Below, piece by piece: positions 3,109 to 22,394 of a stretch of DNA of 64,000 nucleotides. The DNA is from Pseudodesulfovibrio aespoeensis Aspo-2 (GTDB lineage Bacteria > Desulfobacterota > Desulfovibrionia > Desulfovibrionales > Desulfovibrionaceae). The notes beneath the pieces were generated by a model. It worked only from the letters and a program-made list of their open reading frames with translations. It did not search any database and was not told the origin of the DNA. The first letter of the stretch is position 1. The number at the start of each line of letters is the position of its first letter. A program made the position numbers and the translations under genes. The DNA is taken from positions 2,480,001-2,544,000 of the forward strand of contig NC_014844.1 in the NCBI RefSeq assembly GCF_000176915.2, in the 5' to 3' direction.

Positions 3109-3988
3109 CGAACGGGAGGTTTCACTCTCAGGAGCCAAAAAGATTCGGACTGCCCTGGAGGAACTGGGACACCGCGTCACCTTCTTCGACCCGGCGCAGG
3201 ATTTTCGCCATCTGGTGCGCACCGCGCGCGAGGCGGATTTCGCCTTCATCAACCTGCACGGCACCCCCGGCGAGGACGGCCTGATCCAGGCCATGCTCGA
3301 CAAGGCGGGCTGCCCGTATCAGGGAGCCGGGGCCGCCGCCTCCTATCTGGCCCTGGACAAGGGGGCGTCCAAAGAGGTCTTCGAGACCCTGGGCATCGAC
3401 ACCCCGCCGTGGCAGTTCATCACCCCCACCCAGGGCGCGGACACGCCGCTGGCGCTGCCGCTGCCGGTTTTCGTCAAGCCCAACAAGGGCGGCTCCAGCC
3501 TGGGCATGAGCCTGGTCCGCACTGCCGGGGAGTTCCCCTCGGCCCTTTCGAAAGTCTTTGCCATGTGCCAGTCCGCCCTGGTGGAAATCTTCATTCCCGG
3601 CGTGGAGCTGACCTGCGCCGTGCTCGGCGACCGCCCCCTGCCCCTGATCATGATCACGCCCAAGGCGGGCGCGCCCTTTTTCGACTATGAAAACAAATAC
3701 GCCGCCGACGGGGCCGAGGAGGTCTGTCCCGCGCCCGTGTCCGACGCGGTCACGCGGCTGGTCCAGGAGCGGATGCTCGCGGCCCACAACGCCCTGGGGC
3801 TGACCGGCTACAGCCGGGGCGACTTCATCCTGGCCGCAGACGGAACCCCGTACCTGCTTGAAATCAACACCCTGCCGGGCATGACCCCCACCAGCCTGCT
3901 GCCGCGCGCCGCCGGGCAGGTGGGCCTCTCCTTTGCCGCCCTGATCAGCGAGCTGATCCGCCTCGGCCTTGAAGAAAGGGGCCGCTAG
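3074..3988 (+). CDS. ddl: D-alanine--D-alanine ligase
   Basis: Joins two D-alanines using ATP to make the dipeptide end of the peptidoglycan stem. The 304-residue length is typical. Visible motifs: N-terminal GGWSDEREVSLSGA, the central VFVKPNKGGSSLGMS ATP-grasp loop, LVEIFIPGVELTCAVLG, and the C-terminal metal site SRGDFILAADGTPYLLEINTLPGMT. It overlaps the HD-domain gene by 35 bp and is followed after one base by the GTG start of waaA, so all are probably on one envelope transcript. Confidence 0.96.
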   Translation: MHVILIAGGWSDEREVSLSGAKKIRTALEELGHRVTFFDPAQDFRHLVRTAREADFAFINLHGTPGEDGLIQAMLDKAGCPYQGAGAAASYLALDKGASKEVFETLGIDTPPWQFITPTQGADTPLALPLPVFVKPNKGGSSLGMSLVRTAGEFPSALSKVFAMCQSALVEIFIPGVELTCAVLGDRPLPLIMITPKAGAPFFDYENKYAADGAEEVCPAPVSDAVTRLVQERMLAAHNALGLTGYSRGDFILAADGTPYLLEINTLPGMTPTSLLPRAAGQVGLSFAALISELIRLGLEERGR

Positions 3989-3989
3989 C

Positions 3990-5273
3990 GTGGTCTCTGC
4001 CGTCAGCGCGGCCCTGGCCGCCTACGACGCCCTCTGGAAGTGCGCCATCCCGCTACTCAAGCTCAACCACCGGCTGCGCGACGGCTGGGACCAGCGCACC
4101 CTGACGGGCGGCCTGCCTGCCCAGGCCCACCTCTGGGTCCAGGCGGCCAGCGGCGGCGAGGCGTATCTGGCCTGGGAGGTGCTCAAGGGACTTGTCTCGC
4201 CGCCGGGCCAGCCCCTGCGCGTGCTCGCCACCTCGACCACCCGGCAGGGATACGAGACCCTGTGCCGAGCCGCGGACGACATAGCCGGGCGCAAGACCGG
4301 CGTGGCCGTGCAGCCCTGGTATTTCCCCCTGGACGCGCCTTCGATCATGCGCCGGGCCGTGGCCCGGGTCCGGCCCGACTGCGCCCTGATCCTCGAAACC
4401 GAGCTGTGGCCGGGTTTTCTCGATGCCTGCCGCAGGCACGGTACGCGCGTCCTGCTGGCCAACGGGCGCATGACCACCCGGAGCCTGGGCGGCTATCTGG
4501 CCTGGCCCGCCCTGTTCCGCGCCCTGGGACCGGATCGGATCATGGCCGTGTCAGGGACCGACGCCAGCCGCTTTGCCACCCTATTCGGTCGCGAGCGCGT
4601 CCAGATCATGCCCAACATCAAGTTCGACCGCATGGCCGCAGCCAGACCCTCGACCCGCAAGGACAACCCCCTCAGCCACGTGATCCCGGCCAAGGCGCAA
4701 TTCGTGGTCTTCGGCTCGGTGCGCAAGGAGGAACTGGCCGAGGCGACCGGACTGGCCGCCGACCTGCTGCGGACCAGACCCTCAGCCATCATCGGCCTGT
4801 TTCCGCGCCACATGCACCACATCCCCCTGTGGCACAAGGCGCTCGACCGGGCCGGACTGACCTGCGCCCTGCGCTCCGGCCTGACCGACCCGGCTGCGCC
4901 CGGCACCGTGGTGCTCTGGGACACGTTCGGCGAGCTGGTCCCGGCCTACGGCCTTGCCAAGGCGGCCTTTGTGGGCGGCTCCCTCGCGCCGGTGGGCGGG
5001 CAGAATTTCCTGGAGCCCATCACCTGCGGCGTGACCCCGGTCATCGGGCCGCACTGGAAGAACTTCGCCTGGGTCGGCAGTGAGATATTCGACACCGGGC
5101 TGGCCGTGCGGGCAGCCGGTCGGGCCGCCGCCCTGGCCGCCCTGCTCCGGCTCCTTGACGAAACGCCCCGGCGTGCCGATGTATCGGCCAGGGGCCAGGC
5201 CTACATCGCGGACCGCCAGGGCGGCGCGATGGCCGTGCGCAAACAGGTTGCCGATTTTCTCAATAAGGATTAA
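3990..5273 (+). CDS. waaA: 3-deoxy-D-manno-octulosonic acid (Kdo) transferase
   Basis: Transfers Kdo from CMP-Kdo to lipid A on the inner face of the cytoplasmic membrane, the first step of LPS core assembly. The N-terminal half has the family catalytic glutamate region (VQAASGGEAYLA), ETELWPGFLDACRRHG and LANGRMT; the C-terminal half has VFGSVRKEE, GLFPRHMHHIPLW and the sugar-nucleotide region GGSLAPVGGQNFLEPITCGVTPVIGPH. A GTG at 3990 has AAAGGGG 9 bases upstream and is preferred; TTG 3969 would overlap ddl. The CMP-Kdo donor is made by the next gene product, KdsB, so donor synthesis and transfer are neighbours. Confidence 0.94.
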   Translation: MVSAVSAALAAYDALWKCAIPLLKLNHRLRDGWDQRTLTGGLPAQAHLWVQAASGGEAYLAWEVLKGLVSPPGQPLRVLATSTTRQGYETLCRAADDIAGRKTGVAVQPWYFPLDAPSIMRRAVARVRPDCALILETELWPGFLDACRRHGTRVLLANGRMTTRSLGGYLAWPALFRALGPDRIMAVSGTDASRFATLFGRERVQIMPNIKFDRMAAARPSTRKDNPLSHVIPAKAQFVVFGSVRKEELAEATGLAADLLRTRPSAIIGLFPRHMHHIPLWHKALDRAGLTCALRSGLTDPAAPGTVVLWDTFGELVPAYGLAKAAFVGGSLAPVGGQNFLEPITCGVTPVIGPHWKNFAWVGSEIFDTGLAVRAAGRAAALAALLRLLDETPRRADVSARGQAYIADRQGGAMAVRKQVADFLNKD

Positions 5274-5294
5274 CAACCCTCTGCACGAGACGAG

Positions 5295-6035
5295 ATGAGC
5301 ATATTCCCCGAGTGTCACGGAATCATCCCGGCGAGGTACGAATCCTCCCGGTTTCCGGGCAAGCCCCTGGTCGAGATCAAGGGCAGGCCCATGTTCTGGC
5401 ACGTCCACAACCGGGCCAGCCGCTGCCCGCAGCTTGGCAGCGTCACCCTGGCCACGGACGATGCGCGCATCTTTGACGCCGCCCGCAGGCTCGATGTGCC
5501 GGTGGTCATGACCGGCAGCCACCACCAGAGCGGCACGGACCGGGTGCTGGAGGCCGCGCAGCTGCTCGGCATCGCGCCCGATGCCGTGGTGGTCAACATC
5601 CAGGGCGACGAGCCCTGCCTTGAGCCGGAGATGCTGACCGAACTGTTGACCCCGTTCAGGTCGCCCGGAGTGCGCGTGGCCACGCTGGCCACACCCATCG
5701 GCCCGGACAAGGCGGGATCGCCGGACCGCGTCAAGGTGGTCCGGGCGCGCAATGGCCGGGCGCTCTATTTCTCGCGCGCCGTGGTCCCCTATGACCGGGA
5801 CGCCGCGCCCGGAGGCTATCTGCTCCATATCGGACTGTACGCCTTTCGCATGGAGGCCCTACGACGATTCGGGCAGCTTGAGCCTAGCCCGCTCGAACTG
5901 CGGGAAAAACTCGAACAGCTCCGCCTGCTCGAAGACGGCATGGACATTTACGTGACCGAGACGAGGCACGCCTGCCACGGGGTGGACAGGCCCGACGACC
6001 TCGAAATAGTGAAGCATATTCTGGAGAACGACTGA
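5295..6035 (+). CDS. kdsB: CMP-Kdo synthetase (3-deoxy-manno-octulosonate cytidylyltransferase)
   Basis: Activates Kdo with CTP to CMP-Kdo, the donor used by WaaA encoded just upstream. The 246-residue protein starts with the nucleotidyltransferase signature [16 protein letters not shown], then [15 protein letters not shown] and VVNIQGDEP (metal-binding Asp), and later HIGLYAFR and LEQLRLLE, all characteristic of KdsB. Its stop codon overlaps the carA start by one base (TGATG). Confidence 0.96.
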
Positions 6036-7159
6036 TGAAAGCAATCCTGGCCCTTGAAGACGGCACCATATTCAGGGGAACGAGTTTCACCGGCCAAGGC
6101 GAGGCCAGCGGCGAGGTCATCTTCAACACCGGCATGACCGGCTATCAGGAGATCCTGACCGACCCCTCCTACACCGGGCAGATGGTCGTCATGACCTACC
6201 CGCTCATCGGCAACTACGGCGTCAACCCCGACGACGTGGAGTCCAGCAAGGTCCAGGCGGCGGGATTCATCGTCAAGGAGTGCTGCAAGAAGCCGAGCAA
6301 CTGGCGCGCCACCATGTCGCTGCCTGAGTACCTGGCCCAGGCCGGAGTCATGGGCATCGAGGGCATAGACACCCGCGCCCTGACCCGCCACCTGCGCATC
6401 CACGGCGCCCAGCGGGGCTTCATGGCCACCGGCGACGCCAAGCCCGACGAGCTGGTGGACCGGGCCAGAGCCATCGAAAGCATGGAAGGACTCAATCTGG
6501 CCGACCGCGTCTCCTGCGACAAGCCCTACACCTGGGACGGCAAAGGCCCGGTCTTTATCGACAATCTCACTGATTTTTCCTGGGCGGGCACCGGCCCGAA
6601 ACTCGTGGTCTACGACTTCGGCATCAAATGGAACATCCTGCGGCTGCTGGCCGGGCAGGGGTTCGACATGCTGATGGTCCCCTCCTGCTTCAGCGCGGCC
6701 CAGGTGCGCGATCTGGGCCCGGACGCGGTGTTCCTGTCCAACGGCCCCGGCGACCCCGCCGCCGTGAGTTCGGCGGTGGAAGCGACCCGCGATCTGGCCA
6801 CCGATCTGCCCCTGGCTGGCATCTGCCTGGGCCACCAGATCCTCGGCCTGGCCATGGGCGGCAAGACCTTCAAGCTCAAGTTCGGCCACCATGGCTGCAA
6901 CCATCCGGTCATGGACCTGCACACCGAGAAAATCGAAATCTCCTCCCAGAACCACGGCTTTTGCGTGGACATCAAGGGGTTGAATTTTCTCGAAGCCACG
7001 CATATGAATCTCAATGACAGAACCCTCGAAGGGTTCAGGCACCGGGACAAGCCGCTGCTGGCCATCCAGCACCATCCCGAGGCCGGCCCAGGCCCTCACG
7101 ACAGCCGCTATTTCTTTGCGCGTTTTCGTGATATGGTCAGGGACAGCACCGGAAAATAG
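6035..7159 (+). CDS. carA: Carbamoyl-phosphate synthase small subunit (glutaminase)
   Basis: Hydrolyses glutamine and feeds ammonia to CarB for carbamoyl phosphate used in arginine and pyrimidine synthesis. The 374-residue protein has the N-terminal CarA domain ([38 protein letters not shown]) and a C-terminal class I amidotransferase with the nucleophile in [12 protein letters not shown] and the His/Glu pair in [14 protein letters not shown]. It is translationally coupled to kdsB. carB is not in the window. pyrF and gmk lie about 30 kb away on the other strand. Confidence 0.96.
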
Positions 7160-7203
7160 ACCGCCCAGGCGGAAACCGGCACCACAGCAAAGAGCAGGTA
7201 CGC

Positions 7204-8007
7204 ATGTCCTCAGAACTGGTCAAAGCTCGAAAAAAACTGAACTCGGTCACCACCATGCTCAAAAAGGGCAAGTACATGACCGCCATCCAGGGGATTCATG
7301 ACGGCCTCATCCTGCTGCTCAAGACCCCGACCATCAAGTCCGAGCGAGACGAGTTCGAGGAACTCCTGAAAAAGGTCACCTACAGCCTCAGCACCGACGC
7401 CGAGCTGCGCAAGCTCTACCCCCTGGTCATCAGCTACGAGCCGGGCAAGGAGCGCGCCCTGCTCGACGCCATGCGCGAACTTTTGCAGGAATTGCAGAAG
7501 GTTCTCAACGAAGAGGTCCAGGATGACATGCAGGCCATTCTGGGCAGAAAGCGGGACGGGCTCGACGCGGGCCAGAGCCTCCTGGATCAGGAGGACTGGG
7601 ACGGGGCCAAGGAGCTTTTCGATGCCCTGGTCAAGGAGTTCGGCAGCGACACGGACCTCAAGGCCGACATCGCCGACCGCTACCTCAACGCGGGCCGGTT
7701 CAAGGAAGCCTTTCACATGCTCGACGACGCGTTGCGGGACGACCCCAACGCCATACACCTGTACAACCGAATCGGCATGGTCCTGCGCAAGATGAAGGAC
7801 TATGACACGGCGGAAAAGTACTATCTCAAGGCCCTCAGCCTGAGCCACAGCGACGAATATCTGCACTACAACGTGGGTCGCCTCTATTACGACTGGCGTA
7901 AATGGGCCAAGATGGCCAAGGCCGCCGAGGCCGCGGTCAGCCTCAACCCCGACTTTGCCGAAGCCGTCAAGATGCTCAAATTCGCCAGAAAGAAAATGGC
8001 CGAATAG
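7204..8007 (+). CDS. Tetratricopeptide repeat protein
   Basis: A 267-residue soluble protein without signal peptide or membrane segment. The N-terminal half is helical and lysine-rich (KARKKLNSVTTMLKKGKY); the C-terminal half carries about three TPR-type repeats, seen in DWDGAKELFDALVKEF, GRFKEAFHMLDDALRDDPNAIHLYNRIG and DYDTAEKYYLKALSLS. TPR arrays bind other proteins; no catalytic motif is visible. It follows carA after 44 bp and ends at a strong terminator, so it closes the ddl-carA run. The partner is unknown. Confidence 0.8.
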   Translation: MSSELVKARKKLNSVTTMLKKGKYMTAIQGIHDGLILLLKTPTIKSERDEFEELLKKVTYSLSTDAELRKLYPLVISYEPGKERALLDAMRELLQELQKVLNEEVQDDMQAILGRKRDGLDAGQSLLDQEDWDGAKELFDALVKEFGSDTDLKADIADRYLNAGRFKEAFHMLDDALRDDPNAIHLYNRIGMVLRKMKDYDTAEKYYLKALSLSHSDEYLHYNVGRLYYDWRKWAKMAKAAEAAVSLNPDFAEAVKMLKFARKKMAE

Positions 8008-8033
8008 CCGGACAGCACCTCACGACCCTTTAT

Positions 8034-8066
8034 AAATGGCGGCCCAGGCCGCCATTTGTCTTTACA
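8034..8066 (+). terminator. Intrinsic terminator after the TPR gene
   Basis: A perfect 10-bp stem AAATGGCGGC/GCCGCCATTT with a 4-base loop (8034-8057) is followed by GTCTTT. It sits 26 bp after the TPR stop codon. Confidence 0.8.
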
Positions 8067-8122
8067 GGTTGACAACTCCCTGGTAGACACCCCTTCCCCT
8101 TTCCGGGGAGTGGGAGAAACGC

Positions 8123-8236
8123 ATGAATTACTGGTCGGAATTAGGATGGATGGCCGTACCGATGAGCGGAATCGAGATCGGTTTCGCGCTGCTTATGTGC
8201 TACATCTCGCATGTCATGGACAAGAAAAAAGGGTGA
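8123..8236 (+). CDS. 37-residue predicted membrane peptide
   Basis: A short frame encoding 37 residues that starts MNYWSELGWMAVPMSG, continues through a hydrophobic helix-length segment (IEIGFALLMCYISHVM) and ends in a basic tail DKKKG. The ATG is preceded by GGGAG at ideal spacing (about 7 bases), which is the main reason to call it. The topology suggested is one membrane span with a positively charged cytoplasmic end. It lies between the terminator of the upstream run and a strong hairpin before the flavoprotein gene. No family is recognised. Confidence 0.55.
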   Translation: MNYWSELGWMAVPMSGIEIGFALLMCYISHVMDKKKG

Positions 8237-13850: not shown

Positions 13851-14246
13851 ATGCGAGCACTCATAGTCGAGGATGAATTCCTGAGCCGGAAGGTTCTGAA
13901 ATCTTTCCTCATGACCCTCTTCGAGGTTGAGATCGTGGTCAACGGACGCGAGGCCATAGAGGCATTCAAGCTGGCCCACAGGGAAAACCAGCCCTATGGC
14001 CTCATCCTCATGGATATCATGATGCCCGAGGTGGACGGCATCGAGGCCCTCAAGCAGATCAGAAAACTGGAGGCCGACGAAGACCTGCGGCCACGGGTCA
14101 AGGTGATCATGACCACGGCGCTGGACGATCCGCAGACGGTCATGAGATCCTTCTACGACGGCGAGGCCTCGGCCTACATTGTCAAGCCCGTGGTCAAGGA
14201 AAAGCTCTACAAGGAGCTTGAGAAGCTCAATCTTCTTACCAAGTAG
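13851..14246 (+). CDS. Stand-alone response-regulator receiver (CheY-like)
   Basis: A 131-residue single receiver domain: acidic pair in MRALIVEDEF, phosphoacceptor Asp55 in LILMDIMMPEVDG, switch Thr in VIMTTALDD and the conserved lysine in AYIVKPV. No output domain follows. ATG 13851 has AGGGGA 6 bases upstream; ATG 13827 would add eight residues. It starts a three-gene run with an Hpt-STAS protein and a CheA-like kinase, so it is the probable phosphate acceptor of that relay. An AT-rich stretch with TTGACA at 13780-13785 lies in the divergent promoter region shared with trmH. Confidence 0.93.
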   Translation: MRALIVEDEFLSRKVLKSFLMTLFEVEIVVNGREAIEAFKLAHRENQPYGLILMDIMMPEVDGIEALKQIRKLEADEDLRPRVKVIMTTALDDPQTVMRSFYDGEASAYIVKPVVKEKLYKELEKLNLLTK

Positions 14247-14260
14247 ACAGGGAAAAGAGC

Positions 14261-14986
14261 ATGAGCGACGACCCGATGGTCGAGGAGTTCTTCTCCGAGG
14301 TCAACGACAAGTACTATCCCCAGGTAATGGAGGGGCTGGAACTGCTCGAAGTCAGCGAGGTGGCTCAGGGCATCGAGATTCTTTCACGCCCCCTGCACAC
14401 CATCAAGGGCGTGACCGGCTTCATGGTCGGATTCGAGCCAGCCTCACACTTCACCCACAAGATCGAGGATTTCCTGAAAAAGGTGCAGTCCGGAGATGTG
14501 GAGCCGACCCAGTACAACCTGACCCTGCTCTCGCGCGGGATCAACATGATCTTCCAGGTGCTCGAACAGCTCCGGGACGATGCCGTGGACGAGGAGGAAC
14601 AGGAGGAAGTCCTGGCGCTCATCACCGAGGCGTCAAGCAGCGGCCCGGTGGCTGCCGCAGAGACCGGGGCAGGAGTCACAGTGGAGACACGCGACTCCGT
14701 GACCATCATCCGGGTGCGCGACCATCGCGTCCATCTGGACCGACAGTTCAAGCCCGTCATCTCGGCCATCATGGGGGTCGAGCCCGGCGACAAAATCCTG
14801 ATCGACCTGACCGGCGTGCTCACCTTCGGCTCCACTGCCTGGGCCATGGTGGCCAGCATGGGTTCCACCTTCAAGATCGCGGCCTGCGGACTGAGCCCCG
14901 CCGCCAAGCAGACCTTCTACGCCTGGGGATTTGATACCACCATCGCCGTCTATCCCGACGAAGACACCTATTTCACGACCCAGTAA
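14261..14986 (+). CDS. Hpt-STAS fusion protein (histidine phosphotransfer plus anti-sigma-antagonist-like domain)
   Basis: A 241-residue protein of two modules. Residues 1-110 form a histidine-phosphotransfer domain with the phosphorylatable His46 in RPLHTIKGVTGF. After a short Glu-rich linker (DEEEQEEV), residues about 140-241 form a STAS-like domain: VTIIRVRDHRVHLDRQ, ILIDLTGVLTFGSTAW (Ser in the position phosphorylated in SpoIIAA-type proteins) and a final FDTTIAVYPDEDTYF. It sits 15 bp after the receiver gene and 10 bp before the CheA-like kinase. It may supply the phosphotransfer histidine to that kinase in trans; the STAS end could bind a partner. Both roles are inference from domains. 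Confidence 0.85.
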   Translation: MSDDPMVEEFFSEVNDKYYPQVMEGLELLEVSEVAQGIEILSRPLHTIKGVTGFMVGFEPASHFTHKIEDFLKKVQSGDVEPTQYNLTLLSRGINMIFQVLEQLRDDAVDEEEQEEVLALITEASSSGPVAAAETGAGVTVETRDSVTIIRVRDHRVHLDRQFKPVISAIMGVEPGDKILIDLTGVLTFGSTAWAMVASMGSTFKIAACGLSPAAKQTFYAWGFDTTIAVYPDEDTYFTTQ

Positions 14987-14995
14987 GGAGATTCC

Positions 14996-16687
14996 ATGCA
15001 GGACAGCATCAGCAAGTGCATAGAAGACATCGAGAAACAGATTCTCGACGTGGCCAGCTCCGGCTCCGGTGCCGGAGAAGCGGTCAATGCGCTCGGCCTG
15101 TCCCACATGAAGCTCTCCAGCGCGAGCGTCATCACCATTCTCGACATGCTGACCGACGGCATCACCCCGGTCAACGATGATATCGTCACGGCCATGCTCG
15201 GCGTGTGCGAGGCGCAAAAGCGGTTCCTCTTCGCCGTGGGCGGCCTGCTCCACACCGACGCAACATCCCTTGGCAGGAACGCACCCAGGAGCAAGGCCAT
15301 AGCCAGGCCGGACTTCGAGGACGAGGCCGAGGCGGCCAGGGCCTTCATGGACCCCGCAGCCATGGCCGAAGGGGAGCCAAAGTGCGACCTCGATGCCCAG
15401 GAGACAGGGGAGCAAGCCGACCCGGAGCAGGAGTCCGAACCGGACGTCAAATGCGACCCCAAGACCAAGGGCGGCACACCCGCAACCCAGGCCATCTCGT
15501 CCATCCGCGTGCCCACGGACCGGCTGGACCGGGTCATCGAGCTGGTGGGCAAGCTCATGGTCACCTACGCGGTCATCGCCCAGGGCGGGGCGCGCAATCT
15601 CGCCCAGATGGCCGCGTCGCTGCGCGAGCTCGACAACGTCATCAGCCGCTTGCAAAAAGAGGTGGACGCCATCCGACTGGTGCCCCTGAAACAGATTTTC
15701 ATGCCCATGCACCGGCTGGTCAGGAGCCTGAGCCAGAAGATCGGCAAAAGACTCGAATTCACCGTGCAGGGCGATGACCTGGCCCTGGACAAGACCATTG
15801 TCGAGAGTCTCAACGAGCCCCTGGTGCACCTGCTGCGCAATGCGGTGGACCATGGCCTGGAGACCACCGAGGGCCGCAAGCAGGCAGGCAAGGACGAGAC
15901 CGGCAACGTCATCCTCGCGGCCTGGCGCAAGGGCGACACCGCCTTTATCCAGGTGCGCGACGACGGACGCGGACTGGACCCGGACCGCATCCTGAACAAG
16001 GCCCTGGAAAAAGGACTTGCCGACCCGGACAAGCACTACGAGACAGCGGAAATCCTCCAGTTCGTGCTCCAATCGGGCTTCTCCACAGCCGAGACTATCA
16101 CCGATGTCTCCGGGCGCGGCGTGGGCATGGACGCGGTGGTCAACTCCATCCGCAACACCCTTGACGGCGACATCGCCATCGAGAGCACGCTGGGCAAGGG
16201 CGCGGCCTTCACCATCTCCATCCCCCTGGACCGCTCGGCCAACGAGGGCATCGTGGAAGCCCTGGTCTGCAAGGTGGGCGGCGACACCTTCATCGTCCCC
16301 AGCCGCGACGTGGTCGAGATATACATGCCCAAGATCCACGACGTGGTGGAGCTACCCGACGGGCGCGAAACCGTGGACGTGCGCGGCGAGGTCCACTCGC
16401 TGCTGCGGCTGGCCGACCTGCTGGGGCTCACCCCGGAGGTGACCGACATCGAGATGGCCCAGGCCATCGTGGTCCGGGTGGGCGACTACAAGGCCGCCAT
16501 CCTGGTGGACGAAGTCCTCAGGCAGCAACAGGTGGTCATCACCGGCTTCACCGTGCCGGTCGAGGAAATCTTCCATGTGCCCATCCTCGGCTACGGCATG
16601 ATGGGCGAATCCGACGCCCTGGTCATCGACACCGAGGAAATCCTGCAATACTTCCAGGAACGGCGCGCCATGGCGCGAACATCTTGA
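14996..16687 (+). CDS. CheA-like histidine kinase with degenerate N-terminal phosphotransfer domain
   Basis: 563 residues in CheA order. Residues 1-100 are helical and Hpt-sized but lack the HxxKG signature (LGLSHMKLSSASVI instead). A Glu/Asp-rich linker follows, then the dimerisation domain from about 167 (VPTDRLDRVIELVGKLM), an ATPase domain with N-box HLLRNAVDHGLE (about 277), QVRDDGRGLD and VSGRGVGMD (about 371), and a CheW-like domain from about 410 to the end (VGGDTFIVPSRDV, VRVGDYKAAILVDEV). Canonical CheA autophosphorylates its own P1 histidine; here the preceding Hpt-STAS protein is the likely substitute. No chemoreceptor, CheB or CheR gene adjoins. An RBS GGAG precedes the ATG. Confidence 0.88.
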   Translation: MQDSISKCIEDIEKQILDVASSGSGAGEAVNALGLSHMKLSSASVITILDMLTDGITPVNDDIVTAMLGVCEAQKRFLFAVGGLLHTDATSLGRNAPRSKAIARPDFEDEAEAARAFMDPAAMAEGEPKCDLDAQETGEQADPEQESEPDVKCDPKTKGGTPATQAISSIRVPTDRLDRVIELVGKLMVTYAVIAQGGARNLAQMAASLRELDNVISRLQKEVDAIRLVPLKQIFMPMHRLVRSLSQKIGKRLEFTVQGDDLALDKTIVESLNEPLVHLLRNAVDHGLETTEGRKQAGKDETGNVILAAWRKGDTAFIQVRDDGRGLDPDRILNKALEKGLADPDKHYETAEILQFVLQSGFSTAETITDVSGRGVGMDAVVNSIRNTLDGDIAIESTLGKGAAFTISIPLDRSANEGIVEALVCKVGGDTFIVPSRDVVEIYMPKIHDVVELPDGRETVDVRGEVHSLLRLADLLGLTPEVTDIEMAQAIVVRVGDYKAAILVDEVLRQQQVVITGFTVPVEEIFHVPILGYGMMGESDALVIDTEEILQYFQERRAMARTS

Positions 16688-16719
16688 CTTGGCCACCCCT
16701 GTGGGCATAGTTAGCCAGT

Positions 16720-16868
16720 CTCAGGTGTCCACCAAGGATTGAAAAGGGAATCCCGTGCAAATCGGGAGCGGACCCGCCGCCGTGACGCTCTCATGAACCG
16801 TCTTCATTCATGCCACTGGGAAGGCCCGGGAAGGCGAAGACGGGAGGAGCCAGCCGGAAGACCTGCCT
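16720..16868 (+). ncRNA. Cobalamin riboswitch
   Basis: Conserved elements appear in order: AGGTGTCC with the GAAAAGGGAA turn, CCCGTGCAAATCGGGAGCGG, CCGCCGCCGTGA, then GCCACTGGGAAGGCCCGGGA and the B12 box AGCCAGCCGGAAGACCTGCC. It lies about 150 bp before periplasmic cbiK and controls the cbiK-btuCDF-cbiL-cbiK run. The intrinsic terminator at 16945 indicates transcriptional attenuation when B12 is bound. Confidence 0.95.
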
Positions 16869-16944
16869 GAGCCCGTTTCCACGGTCTGCCTCCGATGGCA
16901 CGAGGGCTTGCCATCCATAGGTATTTGAAGGGAAAAATACGGTT

Positions 16945-17021: not shown

Positions 17022-18023
17022 ATGACTCGTTCCCATTTCCACATTCCTGCCTGCATCCTGACCTACGCACTCTCCCTTGCCTTTGTCTGCCTGTTCTCTC
17101 TGCCCGCCCGGGCCGGACACGGCCACAGCGGCCCGGTCAGGCAGGCCATTGTCCTAGCCGCCTTCGGCACCTCCTACCCCGAGGCCCTCGGCTCCATCCT
17201 GAACATCAGGACGCGGGTGGAGCTGGCCAACCCCGGCATCCCGGTGCGCCTCGCCTTCACCTCAAGCACCATCCGCTCCATCTGGCACGAGCGGCGCGAC
17301 GATGCGGCCTGGATCAAGGACAACCCCGGCGTGCCCGCAGAAGTGTTGTCCGTGAAAACGCCCCTGGCCACCATCGCCGACCTGCAAAACGAGGGCTTCC
17401 GCGACATCACGGTCCAGTCGCTGCATGTCTTTGCGGGCGAGGAGTTCGAGGACCTCAAAGGGCTCATGATCGCGCTCGACTCCATACGCACGGTCAAGGC
17501 CAAGTCCGCCCCCTTTGCCGCCCTCCGCCTGGGCCGTCCGGCGCTGGGCATGCCCGGCGACGCCTACCCCTACACCGACGACATCGCCGCCGGGGTCAAG
17601 GCCCTCAAGGCGGACGTGGACCGGGCCAAGACCATGCGCGCCGCCCTGATCTACATGGGCCACGGCAACGACTTCTTCTCCACCGGCATTTACGCGGAAT
17701 TGCAGAAACAGATGAACGAGGCCTACGATGTGCCCGTGTTCGCGGCCTGCGTGGAGGGCTATCCCGCCTTTGACGACATCCTGGCCGGACTCAAGGCGGC
17801 CAAGGTGAAAAAAGTCCTGCTCAAGCCGCTCATGGTGGTGGCGGGCGACCACGCCTCCAACGACATGGCGGGCGACGAGGACGACGCCTGGAAGATCATC
17901 CTGACCAAGGCCGGGTACCAGGTCACCACCGACCTGACGGGCCTGGGCGCTAACGACGCCTGGGCCGACCTCTATGTGGACCATCTCAAGGACGCCATGA
18001 GCCAGTCCGGACTGCTCCGCTAG
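17022..18023 (+). CDS. cbiK: Periplasmic sirohydrochlorin cobaltochelatase CbiK
   Basis: 333 residues with a signal peptide (basic MTRSHFHIP, a hydrophobic core and the LPARAG cleavage region), so the mature protein is exported. The chelatase fold is seen in AIVLAAFGTSYPEALGSI, TVQSLHVFAGEEFEDL (metal-ligand His), YMGHGNDFF (second His) and VLLKPLMVVAGDHASNDMAGDE. Desulfovibrio vulgaris has a characterised periplasmic CbiK that inserts cobalt or iron into sirohydrochlorin and has been linked to metal or heme transport. Here it heads the riboswitch-controlled run with a BtuCDF-type importer, supporting a role in corrinoid or metal supply. GAGGAGG precedes the ATG. Confidence 0.93.
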   Translation: MTRSHFHIPACILTYALSLAFVCLFSLPARAGHGHSGPVRQAIVLAAFGTSYPEALGSILNIRTRVELANPGIPVRLAFTSSTIRSIWHERRDDAAWIKDNPGVPAEVLSVKTPLATIADLQNEGFRDITVQSLHVFAGEEFEDLKGLMIALDSIRTVKAKSAPFAALRLGRPALGMPGDAYPYTDDIAAGVKALKADVDRAKTMRAALIYMGHGNDFFSTGIYAELQKQMNEAYDVPVFAACVEGYPAFDDILAGLKAAKVKKVLLKPLMVVAGDHASNDMAGDEDDAWKIILTKAGYQVTTDLTGLGANDAWADLYVDHLKDAMSQSGLLR

Positions 18024-18029
18024 ACGACC

Positions 18030-19079
18030 ATGACCACCGCCCCCCGCCCATACCCGCGCCAAAAGGCCCGGACCGGACTGACGCTCCTGCTGCTCGCGGC
18101 AGGGCTGTGCGTCCTTGCGGTCGCGGCCACGGGCATGGGGTTCATCGCCATCACTCCGGGCGAGGTGCTCGCCATTGTCTGGGGCTGGCTGCGGGGGGCG
18201 GCGGATTCCCTGGACCCGCTCACAGCGGGCGTGGTCCTTGAGGTGCGGCTGCCGCGCATCCTGACCTCGATCTTCGTGGGCGCGGCCCTGGCCGTGGCGG
18301 GCGCGGTCTTCCAGGGGCTGCTGCTCAACCCGCTGGCCGATCCCTTCACCCTGGGAGTGTCGTCGGGCGCAGCCTTTGGCGCGGCCCTGGCCCTGCTCCT
18401 GGGGCTGACCTTCCTCGGCCCGGCCACCCTGATCCTGACGGCGTTCATCGGCGCCTGCCTGACCCTGCTGGCGGTCATCGCCATGGCCGGGCGCGACGGC
18501 GAGCTCTCGCCGGTCAACCTGATCCTCTCCGGGGTCATCGTCTCGGCCATCCTCTCGGCGGGCTTGAGCTTCATCAAGTATCTGGCCGACGAGCGCGTGG
18601 CGGTCATCGTTTTCTGGCTCATGGGCAGCTTTGTCTCGCGCACCTGGGGCGACGCCCTGCTCACCGGCGCGGTCTGCCTGCCCGGCTTCGCCGTCTGCCT
18701 CCTCCTGGCCCGCGACCTGAACATCATGAGCCTGGGCGCGCTCCAGGCCAGGAGCCTGGGCGTGAACACGGGCCGGGTTCGCCTCGTCCTGCTGCTCACG
18801 GCCTCGCTCATGAGCGCGGTCTGCGTCTCGGTGTCGGGGGTCATCGGCTTTGTCGGGCTGGTGGTGCCGCATCTGATGCGGCTGGTGACCGGGCCGGACA
18901 ACCGCTGGCTGCTGCCCGCCTCCGGGCTGTGCGGAGGCATGCTCCTGCTGGCCGCGGACACCCTGACCCGGGCGGTCCTGCCCCACGAGGTGCCCATCGG
19001 GGTGCTCACGGCCCTGATCGGCGGGCCGGTCTTCTGCTGGCTGTTCAGCCGCACCCGCGCCGGGAGGCGGCATGACTGA
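18030..19079 (+). CDS. btuC: FecCD/BtuC-type ABC transporter permease
   Basis: A 349-residue inner-membrane permease with about ten hydrophobic segments, starting with a long one (LTLLLLAAGLCVLAVAATGM). Family signatures include RLPRILTSIFVGAALAVAGAVFQGLLLNPLADPFTLGVSSGAAFGAA and VSGVIGFVGLVVPHLMRLVTGPDNR, found in BtuC and siderophore permeases. Position under a cobalamin riboswitch and beside corrinoid genes favours vitamin B12/cobinamide over iron-siderophore. It starts 6 bp after cbiK and overlaps the ATPase gene by 8 bp. Confidence 0.85.
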   Translation: MTTAPRPYPRQKARTGLTLLLLAAGLCVLAVAATGMGFIAITPGEVLAIVWGWLRGAADSLDPLTAGVVLEVRLPRILTSIFVGAALAVAGAVFQGLLLNPLADPFTLGVSSGAAFGAALALLLGLTFLGPATLILTAFIGACLTLLAVIAMAGRDGELSPVNLILSGVIVSAILSAGLSFIKYLADERVAVIVFWLMGSFVSRTWGDALLTGAVCLPGFAVCLLLARDLNIMSLGALQARSLGVNTGRVRLVLLLTASLMSAVCVSVSGVIGFVGLVVPHLMRLVTGPDNRWLLPASGLCGGMLLLAADTLTRAVLPHEVPIGVLTALIGGPVFCWLFSRTRAGRRHD

Positions 19080-19866
19080 GGCCGTCACCTACACCGCGCG
19101 CGCCCTCGGCTTCGCCCATGGCCCCACGCCGGTCCTGCGCGGGCTCGACCTTGAGTTTGGGCCAGGGTTGTTCCACGCCGTGGTCGGTCCCAACGGCAGC
19201 GGCAAATCCACCCTGCTCGACCTCCTGGCCGGATTCAAATCGCCCTCTTCTGGCAGCGTGCTGATCAACGGCGCGCCGGTGTCCGAGGTACGCCCGGCGG
19301 CCATGGCCCGGCTGACCGCCTTGGTGCCGCAGGGGTTTGACTGCAACTTTCCCTTCACGGTGCGCGCGACCGTGCTCATGGGCCGCCACCCGCACATCCC
19401 CCGGTTCTCGCGCCCCTCGGACGCGGACATGGCCGCTGTCTCTTCGGCCATGGAGGCCACGGACGTGGCCCATCTGGCCAGCCGCACCCTGGCCGAGCTT
19501 TCGGGCGGCGAACGCCAGCGCACCGTGGTGGCCAGGGCCCTGGCCCAGGCCACGCCGGGCCTCTTGCTGGACGAGCCCACTTCGAGTATGGACATCCGGC
19601 ACGGGCTGGCCGTCATGGCCGAACTTGGCCGGCTGGCCCGCCAGGATGGGCGCACGGTGGTCGCCGTGCTCCACGACCTCAATCTGGCCGCCACCTGCTG
19701 CGACCGCATCGTCATGCTCGCCCACGGCGCGGTCCACACGCAGGGCAGCCCGGATGCCACTCTCACCCCCGAAACCATCCGGGCCGTGTTCGGCGTCCGC
19801 GCCCTTGTCAGCCGCAGCGGCTCCGGCCCCATGACCATTGCCTACGATCCCAAGGACCACGCATGA
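19072..19866 (+). CDS. btuD: ABC transporter ATPase, BtuD/FecE type
   Basis: A 264-residue ATPase that energises the adjacent permease. Walker A is VVGPNGSGKSTLLDLLAGF, the signature LSGGERQRTVVARAL, Walker B LLLDEPTSSMDIRH and the switch histidine lies in VAVLHDLNLAA. The Q-loop is ALVPQGFDCNFPFTVRATVLMGRHPH. It overlaps the permease gene by 8 bp and the binding-protein gene by 4 bp (ATGA), indicating coupled translation. Cobalamin as cargo is inferred from the riboswitch. Confidence 0.88.
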   Translation: MTEAVTYTARALGFAHGPTPVLRGLDLEFGPGLFHAVVGPNGSGKSTLLDLLAGFKSPSSGSVLINGAPVSEVRPAAMARLTALVPQGFDCNFPFTVRATVLMGRHPHIPRFSRPSDADMAAVSSAMEATDVAHLASRTLAELSGGERQRTVVARALAQATPGLLLDEPTSSMDIRHGLAVMAELGRLARQDGRTVVAVLHDLNLAATCCDRIVMLAHGAVHTQGSPDATLTPETIRAVFGVRALVSRSGSGPMTIAYDPKDHA

Positions 19867-20801
19867 CACGCTCTCCCTGCTCCCGTTCTTTCGCCGCCCT
19901 GGCCCTGACCCTGTGCGCCGCCCTGCTCCTGTCGGCCCCCGGCCCGGCCCGCGCCCAGACCGTCAGGGACGACACGGGCCGCACCATCCCGGTGCGCGGG
20001 CCGTTCACCCGCATCATCTCGCTCTATGCGGCCCACACCGAAAACCTCTTCAAGCTCGGCCTGGACGAGGCCATCATCGGCGTCACCGAAAACGAGGACT
20101 TCCCGTCCACCGCCCTGGAAAGGCCGACCTTCAACGCCCGCGACGGCGTGGAGAAATTTCTGGCCGCCAAGCCCGACCTCGTGCTCATCCGGCCCATGCA
20201 GCAGACCGCCCATCCCGGCCTGTGGACCGCCCTTGAGCGTCACGGCGTCGCCGTGGCCGCCCTGCAGCCCGGCACCATCCCGGAGATGTACGATTACTGG
20301 CGCACACTCGGCATCCTGACCGACAGGGAAGTGCAGGCCGAGAGCATGATCGGCGAGTTCAAGGACGGCCTGAGCCTCGCCCGCCAGCGGCTGGAGAGCA
20401 TCCCCCAGCAGCGGCGGCCCGGCGTCTTTTTCGAGTCCATCCACCGCAAGGTCGCCACCTTCTCCCCTGGCTCCATGCCCATCTTCGTGCTGGAGACCGC
20501 AGGCGGACGCAATGTGGCCGACGACGCCCGGCCACGCCATGACACCAACATCGCTGACTACGGCCTGGAGCGCATGTTGGCCAAGGCCCCGGCCATCGAC
20601 GTGTACCTGACCCAGTATGGCGTGATGAACACGGTGACCATCATGGAAATAGCCACTGGCCCGGCGGCCTCACGCATCAAGGCGGTGCGCGACCGCAACA
20701 TCTTCCTGGTGGACGAGCGGCTGGTCTCGCGGCCCACCATGCGCCTGCTCGCAGGCATTGAGACCGTGTACCAACTGCTCCACCCCACCACCGGCGACTA
20801 G
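19863..20801 (+). CDS. btuF: Periplasmic binding protein, BtuF/FepB type
   Basis: 312 residues with an N-terminal signal peptide (RSFAALALTLCAALLLSAPG, cleavage near ARAQ). The mature part begins VRDDTGRTIPVRGPFTRIISLYAAHTENLFKLGLDEAIIGVTENEDFPS and continues through FLAAKPDLVLIRPMQQ, the class III binding-protein pattern for B12 and iron-siderophore carriers. It delivers substrate to the BtuC/BtuD-like pair encoded upstream. Substrate is inferred from the riboswitch and the corrinoid neighbours. Confidence 0.83.
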   Translation: MTRSPCSRSFAALALTLCAALLLSAPGPARAQTVRDDTGRTIPVRGPFTRIISLYAAHTENLFKLGLDEAIIGVTENEDFPSTALERPTFNARDGVEKFLAAKPDLVLIRPMQQTAHPGLWTALERHGVAVAALQPGTIPEMYDYWRTLGILTDREVQAESMIGEFKDGLSLARQRLESIPQQRRPGVFFESIHRKVATFSPGSMPIFVLETAGGRNVADDARPRHDTNIADYGLERMLAKAPAIDVYLTQYGVMNTVTIMEIATGPAASRIKAVRDRNIFLVDERLVSRPTMRLLAGIETVYQLLHPTTGD

Positions 20802-20858
20802 CGACCCGGCACAACACAGACCCCGGCACGGTTGCGAGTCGGCGGGAGAACACAACGC

Positions 20859-21575
20859 ATGACAGATAAAGGCACCCTCTACGGCATCGGAGTCGGCCCC
20901 GGAGATCCGGAACTGCTCACCCTCAAGGCCATCAAGGCCCTGGGCCGGGTGGACGTGATCTTTGCCGCAGCCTCCACCAAGAACGACTACTCCACGGCCT
21001 ACGACATCGCCCGCCCCCACCTCAAGCAGGGCGTGCGCGTGGAGAACCTCGGCTTTCCCATGACCAAGGACGAGGCTGAACTCAACGCGGCCTGGCAGGC
21101 CAACGCCAAGGCCGTGGCCGCTGTCCTGGACCAGGGGCTCGACGCCGCCTTCCTGACCCTGGGCGACCCCCTGACGTACTCCACATACGGCTACCTCCAG
21201 CGCACCCTGCTGGCCATCGACCCGGCCATCCGGCTTCAGGCCATTCCGGGCATCACCTCGTTCCACGCGGCTGCGGCCAGGATCGGGCTGGTCCTGTGCG
21301 AATCCAAGGAATCGCTGCTGATCACCTCGGGCGTGTCCGACCCGGACCGGCTCGAAGCCCAGCTTGACGTGGCCGACAACGCTGTTATCCTCAAGGCCTA
21401 CAAAAACTTCGAGGAGATCCGGTCCACGCTGGAGCGGCTCAGGCTGTCGGACAAGACCGTGCTCGTGTCGCGCCTGGGCATGGAGGGAGAATCCATCCTC
21501 ATGGACATCAAGGATGCGCCCGCCACGCCGCACTATTTCTCGCTGGCGCTGGTCAAGAAAAACACCGGGAAATAA
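20859..21575 (+). CDS. cbiL: Precorrin-2/cobalt-factor-II C20-methyltransferase
   Basis: Methylates C20 of cobalt-sirohydrochlorin (cobalt-factor II) with SAM, the step directly after cobalt insertion in the anaerobic corrin pathway. The 238-residue protein starts LYGIGVGPGDPELLTLKAIKAL, the glycine loop of tetrapyrrole methyltransferases, and continues with FLTLGDPLTYSTYGYL and AIPGITSFHAAAARIGLVL. ATG 20859 has GGGAGAA upstream; the longer frame from 20832 lacks a ribosome site. The next gene is the cytosolic chelatase that makes its substrate. Confidence 0.93.
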   Translation: MTDKGTLYGIGVGPGDPELLTLKAIKALGRVDVIFAAASTKNDYSTAYDIARPHLKQGVRVENLGFPMTKDEAELNAAWQANAKAVAAVLDQGLDAAFLTLGDPLTYSTYGYLQRTLLAIDPAIRLQAIPGITSFHAAAARIGLVLCESKESLLITSGVSDPDRLEAQLDVADNAVILKAYKNFEEIRSTLERLRLSDKTVLVSRLGMEGESILMDIKDAPATPHYFSLALVKKNTGK

Positions 21576-21587
21576 GAGCACCGGAAC

Positions 21588-22394
21588 ATGAAGAAAGCCA
21601 TTGTCCTCGCCGCCTTCGGCTCCCGCCACGAAAACTCCGTGGCCTCCCTGGCCCACATCACACAGCGCGTGCGCCGGGCGCACCCGGACACGCCCGTGTG
21701 CCTGGCCTACACCTCGCGCACCATCCGGGGCCACATGGCAGAAGCGGGCGAGGCCGTGGAGTCCGTGCCCGACGCCCTGAGCCGACTGCTGGGCGAGGGC
21801 GTCACCCACGTGGTCGTCCAGTCACTGCACCTCATCCCCGGTGCCGAGTTCCACGGGCTGCTCGAACTGGCCAACGATCTGGTCCTCAAAAATGGCGGAT
21901 TCAGCCGGGTCGAGGTGGGATTCCCCCTGGTGGCTGGCGAGGCCGGAGTGGACAGGGTGGTGGACGCCATCCTGGCCGAGACCCTGGCCGAGACCATGGG
22001 CGGGCGCGATGAACACGACGCCGTGCTCTTCATGGGCCACGGCACCAAGCACGACGGCAATGTCTATTACGACTGTCTGCATCAGGCCTTCCAGGCCCGC
22101 GACAGCGCCGTGCACATGGGGGCCATGGAGGCCGAACCGGGCATCGACGCCATCATCGAGCGGTTCACGGAAAGCGGCGTGAAACGGGCCTATCTGCTCC
22201 CGTTCCTCTTTGGCGCGGGCTGGCACGCGGCGCGCGACATGGTGGGCGAGGGCGAGGCCAGCTGGAAATCCCGGCTCGAAGAGGCAGGCATCGAATGCGT
22301 GGCCGTGCTCAAGGGCGCGGGCGAATACGACTCCCTGGTGGACATCTGGCTGACCCACCTGGACGACGCCATGCGCCGCCTGTCGCGCTGCTAG
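21588..22394 (+). CDS. cbiK: Cytosolic sirohydrochlorin cobaltochelatase CbiK
   Basis: A second CbiK of 268 residues, this one without a signal peptide (starts MKKAIVLAAFGSRHENS). Motifs parallel the periplasmic copy: VVVQSLHLIPGAEFHGLLE and LFMGHGTKHDGN carry the metal-ligand histidines and YLLPFLFGAGWHAARDMVGE replaces the C-terminal loop. It inserts cobalt into sirohydrochlorin for the CbiL step encoded 12 bp upstream. Having secreted and cytosolic forms in one riboswitch-led run is notable. Both copies are named cbiK. The metK remnant starts immediately after its stop. Confidence 0.93.
   Translation: MKKAIVLAAFGSRHENSVASLAHITQRVRRAHPDTPVCLAYTSRTIRGHMAEAGEAVESVPDALSRLLGEGVTHVVVQSLHLIPGAEFHGLLELANDLVLKNGGFSRVEVGFPLVAGEAGVDRVVDAILAETLAETMGGRDEHDAVLFMGHGTKHDGNVYYDCLHQAFQARDSAVHMGAMEAEPGIDAIIERFTESGVKRAYLLPFLFGAGWHAARDMVGEGEASWKSRLEEAGIECVAVLKGAGEYDSLVDIWLTHLDDAMRRLSRC

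Follow-up and report, generated by a model that had tools for sequence, protein, structure and literature searches.

The window analyzed here is a stretch of 64,000 nucleotides, positions 2480001-2544000 of the single-contig genome of Pseudodesulfovibrio aespoeensis Aspo-2 (3,629,109 bases). It contains three close-packed genes on the + strand that encode, in order, a receiver, a protein in which a phosphotransfer (Hpt) domain appears to be fused to a STAS domain (Hpt-STAS), and a CheA-like kinase (Table 1); the gaps between them are 14 bases and 9 bases. A first-pass annotation made from the sequence alone had described this gene order, with an HTIKG motif and His46 in the Hpt-STAS protein, and its coordinates and domains hold. 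Our analysis confirms the cassette as real and conserved, and sequence comparison presents it as a probable bipartite CheA with a STAS-fused acceptor, which two loci in relatives tie to partner switching. Hpt-STAS and the kinase share a reading frame in the window; the spacing between them differs among relatives (9, -4, 10, 18, -1, 2 and others), and they are therefore two separate genes rather than the product of stop-codon read-through or a split frame.

Table 1. Coordinates of the cassette genes and their domains in the window
Feature	Position	Strand	Remarks
Single-domain receiver (CheY-like)	13851-14246	+	Pfam Response_reg; phospho-Asp55 codon 14013-14015
Hpt-STAS protein, 241 amino acids	14261-14986	+	Pfam, profile and fold matches
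Hpt (CheA P1-type), residues 1-106	14261-14578	+	phospho-His46 codon 14396-14398; HTIKG; E69
STAS, residues 138-241	14672-14983	+	antagonists best in Foldseek; S191 (codon 14831-14833) aligned with the phospho-serine site of antagonists
CheA-like kinase lacking a phosphotransfer histidine, 563 amino acids	14996-16687	+	Pfam, profile and fold matches
Kinase N-terminal helical domain, residues 1-85	14996-15250	+	perhaps a degenerate P1 that lacks the histidine helix
Kinase core	15497-16648	+	dimerization 168-223, ATPase to 412, CheW-like 422-551 (Pfam)

The N-terminal half of the Hpt-STAS protein passes the Pfam Hpt cut-off narrowly (26.8 bits against 24.6). A profile built from 19 Hpt-STAS sequences finds CheA P1 structures best (2ld6, E 4.1e-9), and in the alignment of the Hpt and CheA P1 profiles the histidine, the lysine-glycine pair and the later glutamate E69 are in register. 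The AlphaFold2 model of the protein (predicted local distance difference test score, pLDDT, 86.0; predicted template modeling score, pTM, 0.52) combines a helix bundle with an alpha/beta domain; His46 lies on the predicted helix 34-54, and Foldseek places CheA P1 chains at E 3.5e-3. The HTIKG motif is intact in 59/59 unbroken distinct Hpt-STAS rows, the 60th row being a broken frame (G032, locus L059). Outside the order to which Aspo-2 belongs, the Hpt profile matches the P1 domain of one-piece CheAs; Pfam finds no CheW domain in the Hpt-STAS protein. Assignment of this half to the CheA P1 type is supported by both sequence profiles and the predicted fold.

The kinase carries H-kinase_dim, HATPase_c and CheW domains in that order, all over the Pfam cut-off, and CheA core structures match it by sequence too in a profile search. 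Compared with 8c5v, 3ja6, 1b3q and 6s1k, the kinase model gives Z 27.9-24.7 over 363-380 residues with a root-mean-square deviation of 6.2-9.5, a whole-model comparison that tests mostly residues 221-414 and not the N-terminus. The ATP-site positions H278, N282, D285, H286, D322, G324, G373, G375 and G377 (N-box and G-box) are kept in all 67 rows that have letters there. The dimerization, ATPase and CheW domains and the N and G boxes are present as first annotated. What the kinase lacks is a phosphotransfer histidine. No HxxKG motif occurs in its N-terminus in any of the 68 rows, again in agreement with the annotation, and Pfam matches neither an Hpt nor a P2 domain in the kinase. Some genes stand twice among the 68 rows, at different cut lengths, and a few rows have broken or partial N-termini (L013, L060/L077, L108).

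The N-terminus of the window kinase holds two histidines, His37 and His86. Of the 68 rows, 38 have histidine at residue 37, 28 have a different residue there and 2 have a gap; at every other position in the first 110 residues histidine occurs in at most 15 rows, and none is conserved. Residues 1-85 are themselves conserved (mean pairwise identity 0.552), and the kinase model, with pLDDT 70.1 overall, reaches 77-90 in its first eight ten-residue blocks. Its predicted N-terminal helices are 2-22, 26-32, 43-53 and 61-81, and the counterpart of the His46 helix would be the short helix 26-32. The model of the whole kinase places residue 37 in a loop. In a scan of the phylum, the profile of the kinase N-terminus (A5) matches 6 genomes outside the family (E 0.0006-0.009), and in the CheA-like frame of G325 the A5 match (E 0.0016) coincides with a match to the Hpt profile. 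The kinase N-terminus is possibly the remnant of a decayed P1 domain. Interrupted frames, whether real or sequencing errors, occur in Hpt-STAS of G032 (L059) and in the N-terminal part of the kinase in G001 (L066) and Salidesulfovibrio brasiliensis (L077).

The receiver matches Pfam Response_reg with 72.5 bits, and D8, D55 and K112 are kept in 57/57 distinct rows. A longer open reading frame from 13827 would add 8 residues; many relatives begin at a conserved MRALIV, and counted from there the phospho-aspartate is D55.

The C-terminal half of the Hpt-STAS protein is, on balance of predicted fold and profile, a STAS domain of the anti-sigma-factor-antagonist type. Such antagonists are the top Foldseek matches of the model (8ih8, 4qtp, 1tid, 4hyl and 1th8; E 8.1e-5 to 1.6e-4), with TM scores by target of 0.69-0.75 in the eight best Foldseek rows, and they recur at E 0.004-0.018 in the profile search with the 19 Hpt-STAS sequences. 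With anti-sigma-factor antagonists first in Foldseek, a misread P2 domain is out. S191 is serine in 57/60 rows; among the 104 columns of the STAS domain, just two are more conserved. It aligns with the serine of the GS pair in 4qtp, 8ih8 and 3t6o, and the serine of this pair in solved antagonists is the one that is phosphorylated in the family.

The Hpt-STAS profile (E 1e-15) matches 84/348 genomes of the order; among those 84, the match covers only the Hpt part in G296, is cut in G710 and is split by the broken frame in G032. Within the genus of the window 35/36 genomes match, the exception, G007, being 82% complete. We examined 74 loci, in which some genomes are counted twice; duplicates were recognized by exact sequence identity, a filter that misses kinases trimmed to different lengths. 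All three genes are found in 72 of them (BLAST E 1e-8), and in 71 they stand in order on one strand, so the three-gene order that the annotation had proposed to survey is indeed kept among relatives. The exceptions are L058, where the receiver is 3.2 kilobases (kb) away, and L116 and L118, which have no receiver match at E 1e-8. In L116 (G223, 3716-8194) a large hybrid kinase with receiver and Hpt domains replaces the lone receiver and ends 24 bases before Hpt-STAS. The spacing of Hpt-STAS and kinase is between -4 and +18 bases in 66/72 loci.

The gene order is also present in 18/18 named loci, including one truncated where its contig ends and one whose kinase frame is broken; the 18 come from Desulfovibrio-type or uncultured delta-proteobacteria, the search having used peptide patterns from close relatives. 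Hpt-STAS is 73-84% identical in seven of the named loci (six Pseudodesulfovibrio, one Desulfovibrionaceae), and the order persists in relatives whose Hpt-STAS is just 38-41% identical, which rules out a chance arrangement. No Hpt-STAS was recognized outside the order among 395 genomes of the phylum (profile A2, E 1e-9). In that scan 102 genomes matched, and except in G000, G060 and G088 the matches cover the Hpt part or slightly more; the one that reaches furthest, to position 198 in G662, is a CheA with its own Hpt, and those in G372 and G615 extend past the Hpt within frames of 905 and 955 amino acids.

In a tree of the kinase core with 49 rows, the 36 window-type kinases form one clade (100/97), and the kinases paired with Hpt-STAS, including two from loci with an RsbW-like gene, stand apart from 11 other CheAs (96/87). 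The placement of the RsbW-type pair (86/66), which sits on long branches, is unsure. L096 was dropped from the tree, L079 was not included, and L118 and L058 were excepted as RsbW-type. In the alignments, L079 was left out of A3 (contig end), which takes in L077 in part (broken frame); A5 is without L077, and A4 and A8 hold 13/18 and 14/18 of the named loci, respectively.

Two divergent loci bring the cassette together with partner-switch genes. In G044 (L058), from another family of the order, a receiver, an HD_5 protein, a SpoIIE phosphatase, an RsbW-like HATPase_c_2 protein, Hpt-STAS and the kinase are encoded on one strand. In G238 (L118), from the family of the window, an RsbW-like gene is followed by Hpt-STAS and the kinase, and a receiver-SpoIIE gene converges from downstream. 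Where they can be compared, the two RsbW-like proteins share 41% identity, and their C-terminal tails resemble the STAS domain of Hpt-STAS (31% across 83 columns in BLAST, E 4e-9; hhalign against the STAS profile 92.9%, E 3.6e-7). The presence of an RsbW-like gene beside Hpt-STAS in these loci suggests a reason for the conservation of S191. A link between the STAS half and a partner switch, which the first-pass annotation had put forward, is thus partly supported: the RsbW-like and SpoIIE genes of G044 and G238 and the near-invariant serine speak for it, but there is no gene for an RsbW-type (anti-sigma) kinase or a PP2C phosphatase among the ten neighbors of the window cassette. In G048 (L137, 8308-11608), genes for an HD protein, a phosphatase and RsbW-STAS are followed by a short HATPase_c gene; no Hpt-STAS was found in the 18 kb read there, bar a short match inside RsbW-STAS, and none genome-wide at E 1e-15.

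As first annotated, the cassette has no chemoreceptor, CheB or CheR beside it: chemotaxis genes number zero among the ten flanking genes scanned, CheB and CheR not having been sought genome-wide. In the genome of the window, 24 open frames carry a total of 25 MCP-signal matches, and there are three CheA-type frames and seven other frames with a CheW domain, so that the kinase could join a chemoreceptor array through its CheW-like domain. In the relative G226 a chemoreceptor gene begins 15 bases behind the kinase; a chemoreceptor gene lies about 5-7 kb away in L108 and L122, and L083/L114 have a weak match (23%). A CheW-domain gene (G000:C1:2477995-2478375, in a CheV-sized frame of 347 amino acids) lies upstream, a little beyond the edge of the window and some 15 kb from the cassette.

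The cassette is probably a bipartite CheA, in which a phosphoryl group goes in trans from the kinase to His46 of Hpt-STAS and then to Asp55 of the receiver, and in which the kinase's own P1 domain has likely decayed. We favor this interpretation because the HTIKG motif (59/59) and the ATP site (67/67) are kept and HxxKG is absent from the kinase (0/68). The kinase would provide a complete P3-P4-P5 catalytic and receptor-coupling core, with its own P1 probably reduced to a small helical remnant. It would phosphorylate His46 of the separate Hpt-STAS protein, and Asp55 of the receiver encoded with it would then take over the phosphoryl group. As for the STAS half, it may be a protein-interaction module through which Hpt-STAS once contacted, or contacts to this day, an RsbW/PP2C circuit; in the lineage of the window that circuit is not encoded beside Hpt-STAS. 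RsbW/PP2C genes occur near the cassette in 2/49 loci scanned (G044 and G238 only) and the receiver directly precedes the pair in 71/74, so the receiver appears to be the principal output there. The first-pass annotation had spoken of autophosphorylation in trans. Its view of the acceptor stands, in that the Hpt-STAS gene supplies the conserved histidine that the kinase lacks, but what the term describes would in fact be the phosphorylation of another protein.

Several points weigh against this interpretation. Transfer from the kinase to His46, transfer to Asp55, coupling to chemoreceptors and any effect on a sigma factor are what we infer from sequences, predicted folds, gene order and the conservation of catalytic and acceptor residues. 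The pairing of the receiver with Hpt-STAS rests on gene order, since the genome has two closer receiver paralogues elsewhere (48% and 45% identity), and cross-talk of the receiver with other partners is possible. The STAS match in Pfam is 17.1 bits, under the cut-off of 22.6; a STAS-only profile against PDB sequences puts two designed repeat proteins (E 0.00027 and 0.0019) above the antagonists (E 0.0024-0.057); and S191 is replaced in three rows (Thr in L083, Pro in L116, Arg in L117). The STAS half also evolves faster than the Hpt half (mean pairwise identity 0.405 versus 0.670). For the RsbW-like tails, the Pfam STAS match is below the cut-off in G044 and absent in G238, and a profile search with the tails found no STAS structure. 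The two RsbW/PP2C loci are few among 49, and G226 is the sole directly adjacent chemoreceptor case in the same number. The hhalign alignment of kinase residues 34-81 with Hpt 57-104, although in the P1 register, is weak (probability 5%, E 0.007).

An alternative that we hold to be somewhat short of an even chance is that the STAS domain is a tether or a substitute for P2, which keeps the Hpt domain near the kinase or the receiver and has no sigma-factor output. The kinase has no P2 match, and its linker is modeled with low confidence and poorly conserved (mean identity 0.228); the constant position of the receiver directly before the pair and the faster divergence of STAS relative to Hpt would also fit. 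However, the receiver, lone Hpt and P1-less CheA of G575 have no STAS domain, which suggests that a tether is dispensable, and the near-invariance of S191 is left unexplained.

It is rather unlikely, but conceivable, that the output is the partner switch, with Hpt-STAS itself as the antagonist: phosphorylation of His46 would alter the binding of STAS to an RsbW-type kinase encoded elsewhere, and the receiver would be mainly a phosphate drain. The RsbW-like and PP2C genes that adjoin the pair in two divergent loci and the serine at the antagonist position in 57/60 rows are in keeping with this, and the genome of the window does contain three short RsbW-like frames and one frame of 563 amino acids with a clear HATPase_c_2 match. 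Yet RsbW/PP2C genes are absent among the ten neighbors of the window cassette, each of the short RsbW-like genes adjoins its own STAS gene, and RsbW-STAS of G044 has no match in the window's genome at E 1e-6.

A related and slightly less probable scenario dispenses with the receiver. The kinase would phosphorylate His46 directly on an anti-sigma-factor antagonist, STAS-STAS or STAS-RsbW contacts would switch, and a chemoreceptor array would so control a partner switch and, by way of it, gene expression or some other output. In that unlikely case the counterpart in the switch would be RsbW-STAS, as encoded in G044 and G238, and in the lineage of the window this module would have handed its output to a CheY. 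The idea that His37 of the kinase is its own phospho-acceptor and that Hpt-STAS serves another kinase is very improbable and is rejected on conservation: histidine is at residue 37 in the window kinase and in 38/68 rows, but another residue is there in 28/68, the position is in a predicted loop, and HTIKG is in every unbroken Hpt-STAS row. The slightest chance is given to a pseudo-kinase or broken gene, for although kinase or Hpt-STAS frames are interrupted in G001, G032 and S. brasiliensis, all tested ATP-site positions are kept in the 67 rows with letters.

Separate Hpt genes are known for CheA from the bipartite CheA of Berry et al. 2023. The window cassette resembles that system in having a CheA core without Hpt and an adjoining Hpt gene; it differs in the STAS domain, a word that does not occur in the main text of that paper, and in the possible remnant of an N-terminal domain in the kinase. 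A bipartite CheA without STAS is encoded in L141 (G575, 4490-6936), where a receiver and a lone Hpt accompany a CheA without an Hpt match. The proposed route from a P1-less kinase to a histidine domain on another protein and on to a receiver is like that described for Rhodobacter sphaeroides CheA3 and CheA4 (PMC10782961), although the cassette is not that pair. According to the portion of that paper that covers it, R. sphaeroides CheA3 combines a degraded kinase region with a CheW domain, whereas Hpt-STAS has a STAS domain instead. Ray 2014 (PMC3944678), in the sections dealing with D. vulgaris CheA1-3, mentions neither STAS nor Hpt. A literature search limited to open-licence papers did not find an Hpt-STAS fusion.

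Chemosensory and partner-switch genes stand side by side in the F7 stage 1 clusters (PMC7184735) and in Shewanella che1 with CrsR/CrsA (PMC9855816). There too, CheA, CheY and an antagonist are encoded together, along with a serine phosphatase or CrsR. In the descriptions of these clusters, though, the antagonist has its own gene and no split-off Hpt appears, whereas in the cassette one protein carries both the Hpt domain and the antagonist fold. In the HptB-HsbR-HsbA system of Pseudomonas aeruginosa (PMC6482189), an Hpt protein provides the input to a partner switch that includes an anti-sigma-factor antagonist. As far as the relevant sections of that paper go, Hpt and antagonist are separate and joined through the HsbR receiver, and it is hybrid kinases, not CheA, that feed HptB. 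Another family of the same phylum has a cluster in G314 (L142, 183-8742) with a receiver, a CheA with Hpt, Hpt-CheW, REC-SpoIIE/PP2C and a REC-RsbW-like protein. It is similar in that CheA-type phosphorelay genes adjoin partner-switch genes, but its CheA retains its own Hpt and no STAS is fused to an Hpt domain.

In a published survey of CheA, the Hpt counts as a core part that is at most split off; here a split-off Hpt appears to have gained a STAS domain. The arrangement has been kept across many genera of one order of sulfate reducers and suggests a possible connection between a sensory relay and a molecular switch of another type. It offers a system in which the convergence of a histidine relay and a serine partner switch on a single protein can be put directly to the test.

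The surroundings of the cassette are of a different nature. A SpoU-type methylase gene lies upstream on the opposite strand, and a homologue of it is present in 18/18 named loci. Downstream of the kinase there is a cobalamin riboswitch (16706-16884, 106.4 bits), followed by a cobalt/corrinoid run (17022-22394) that encodes CbiK, FecCD, an ABC ATPase, a periplasmic binding protein, a tetrapyrrole methylase and a second CbiK. With the methylase on one side and the riboswitch and corrinoid genes on the other, the cassette stands alone amid unrelated genes.

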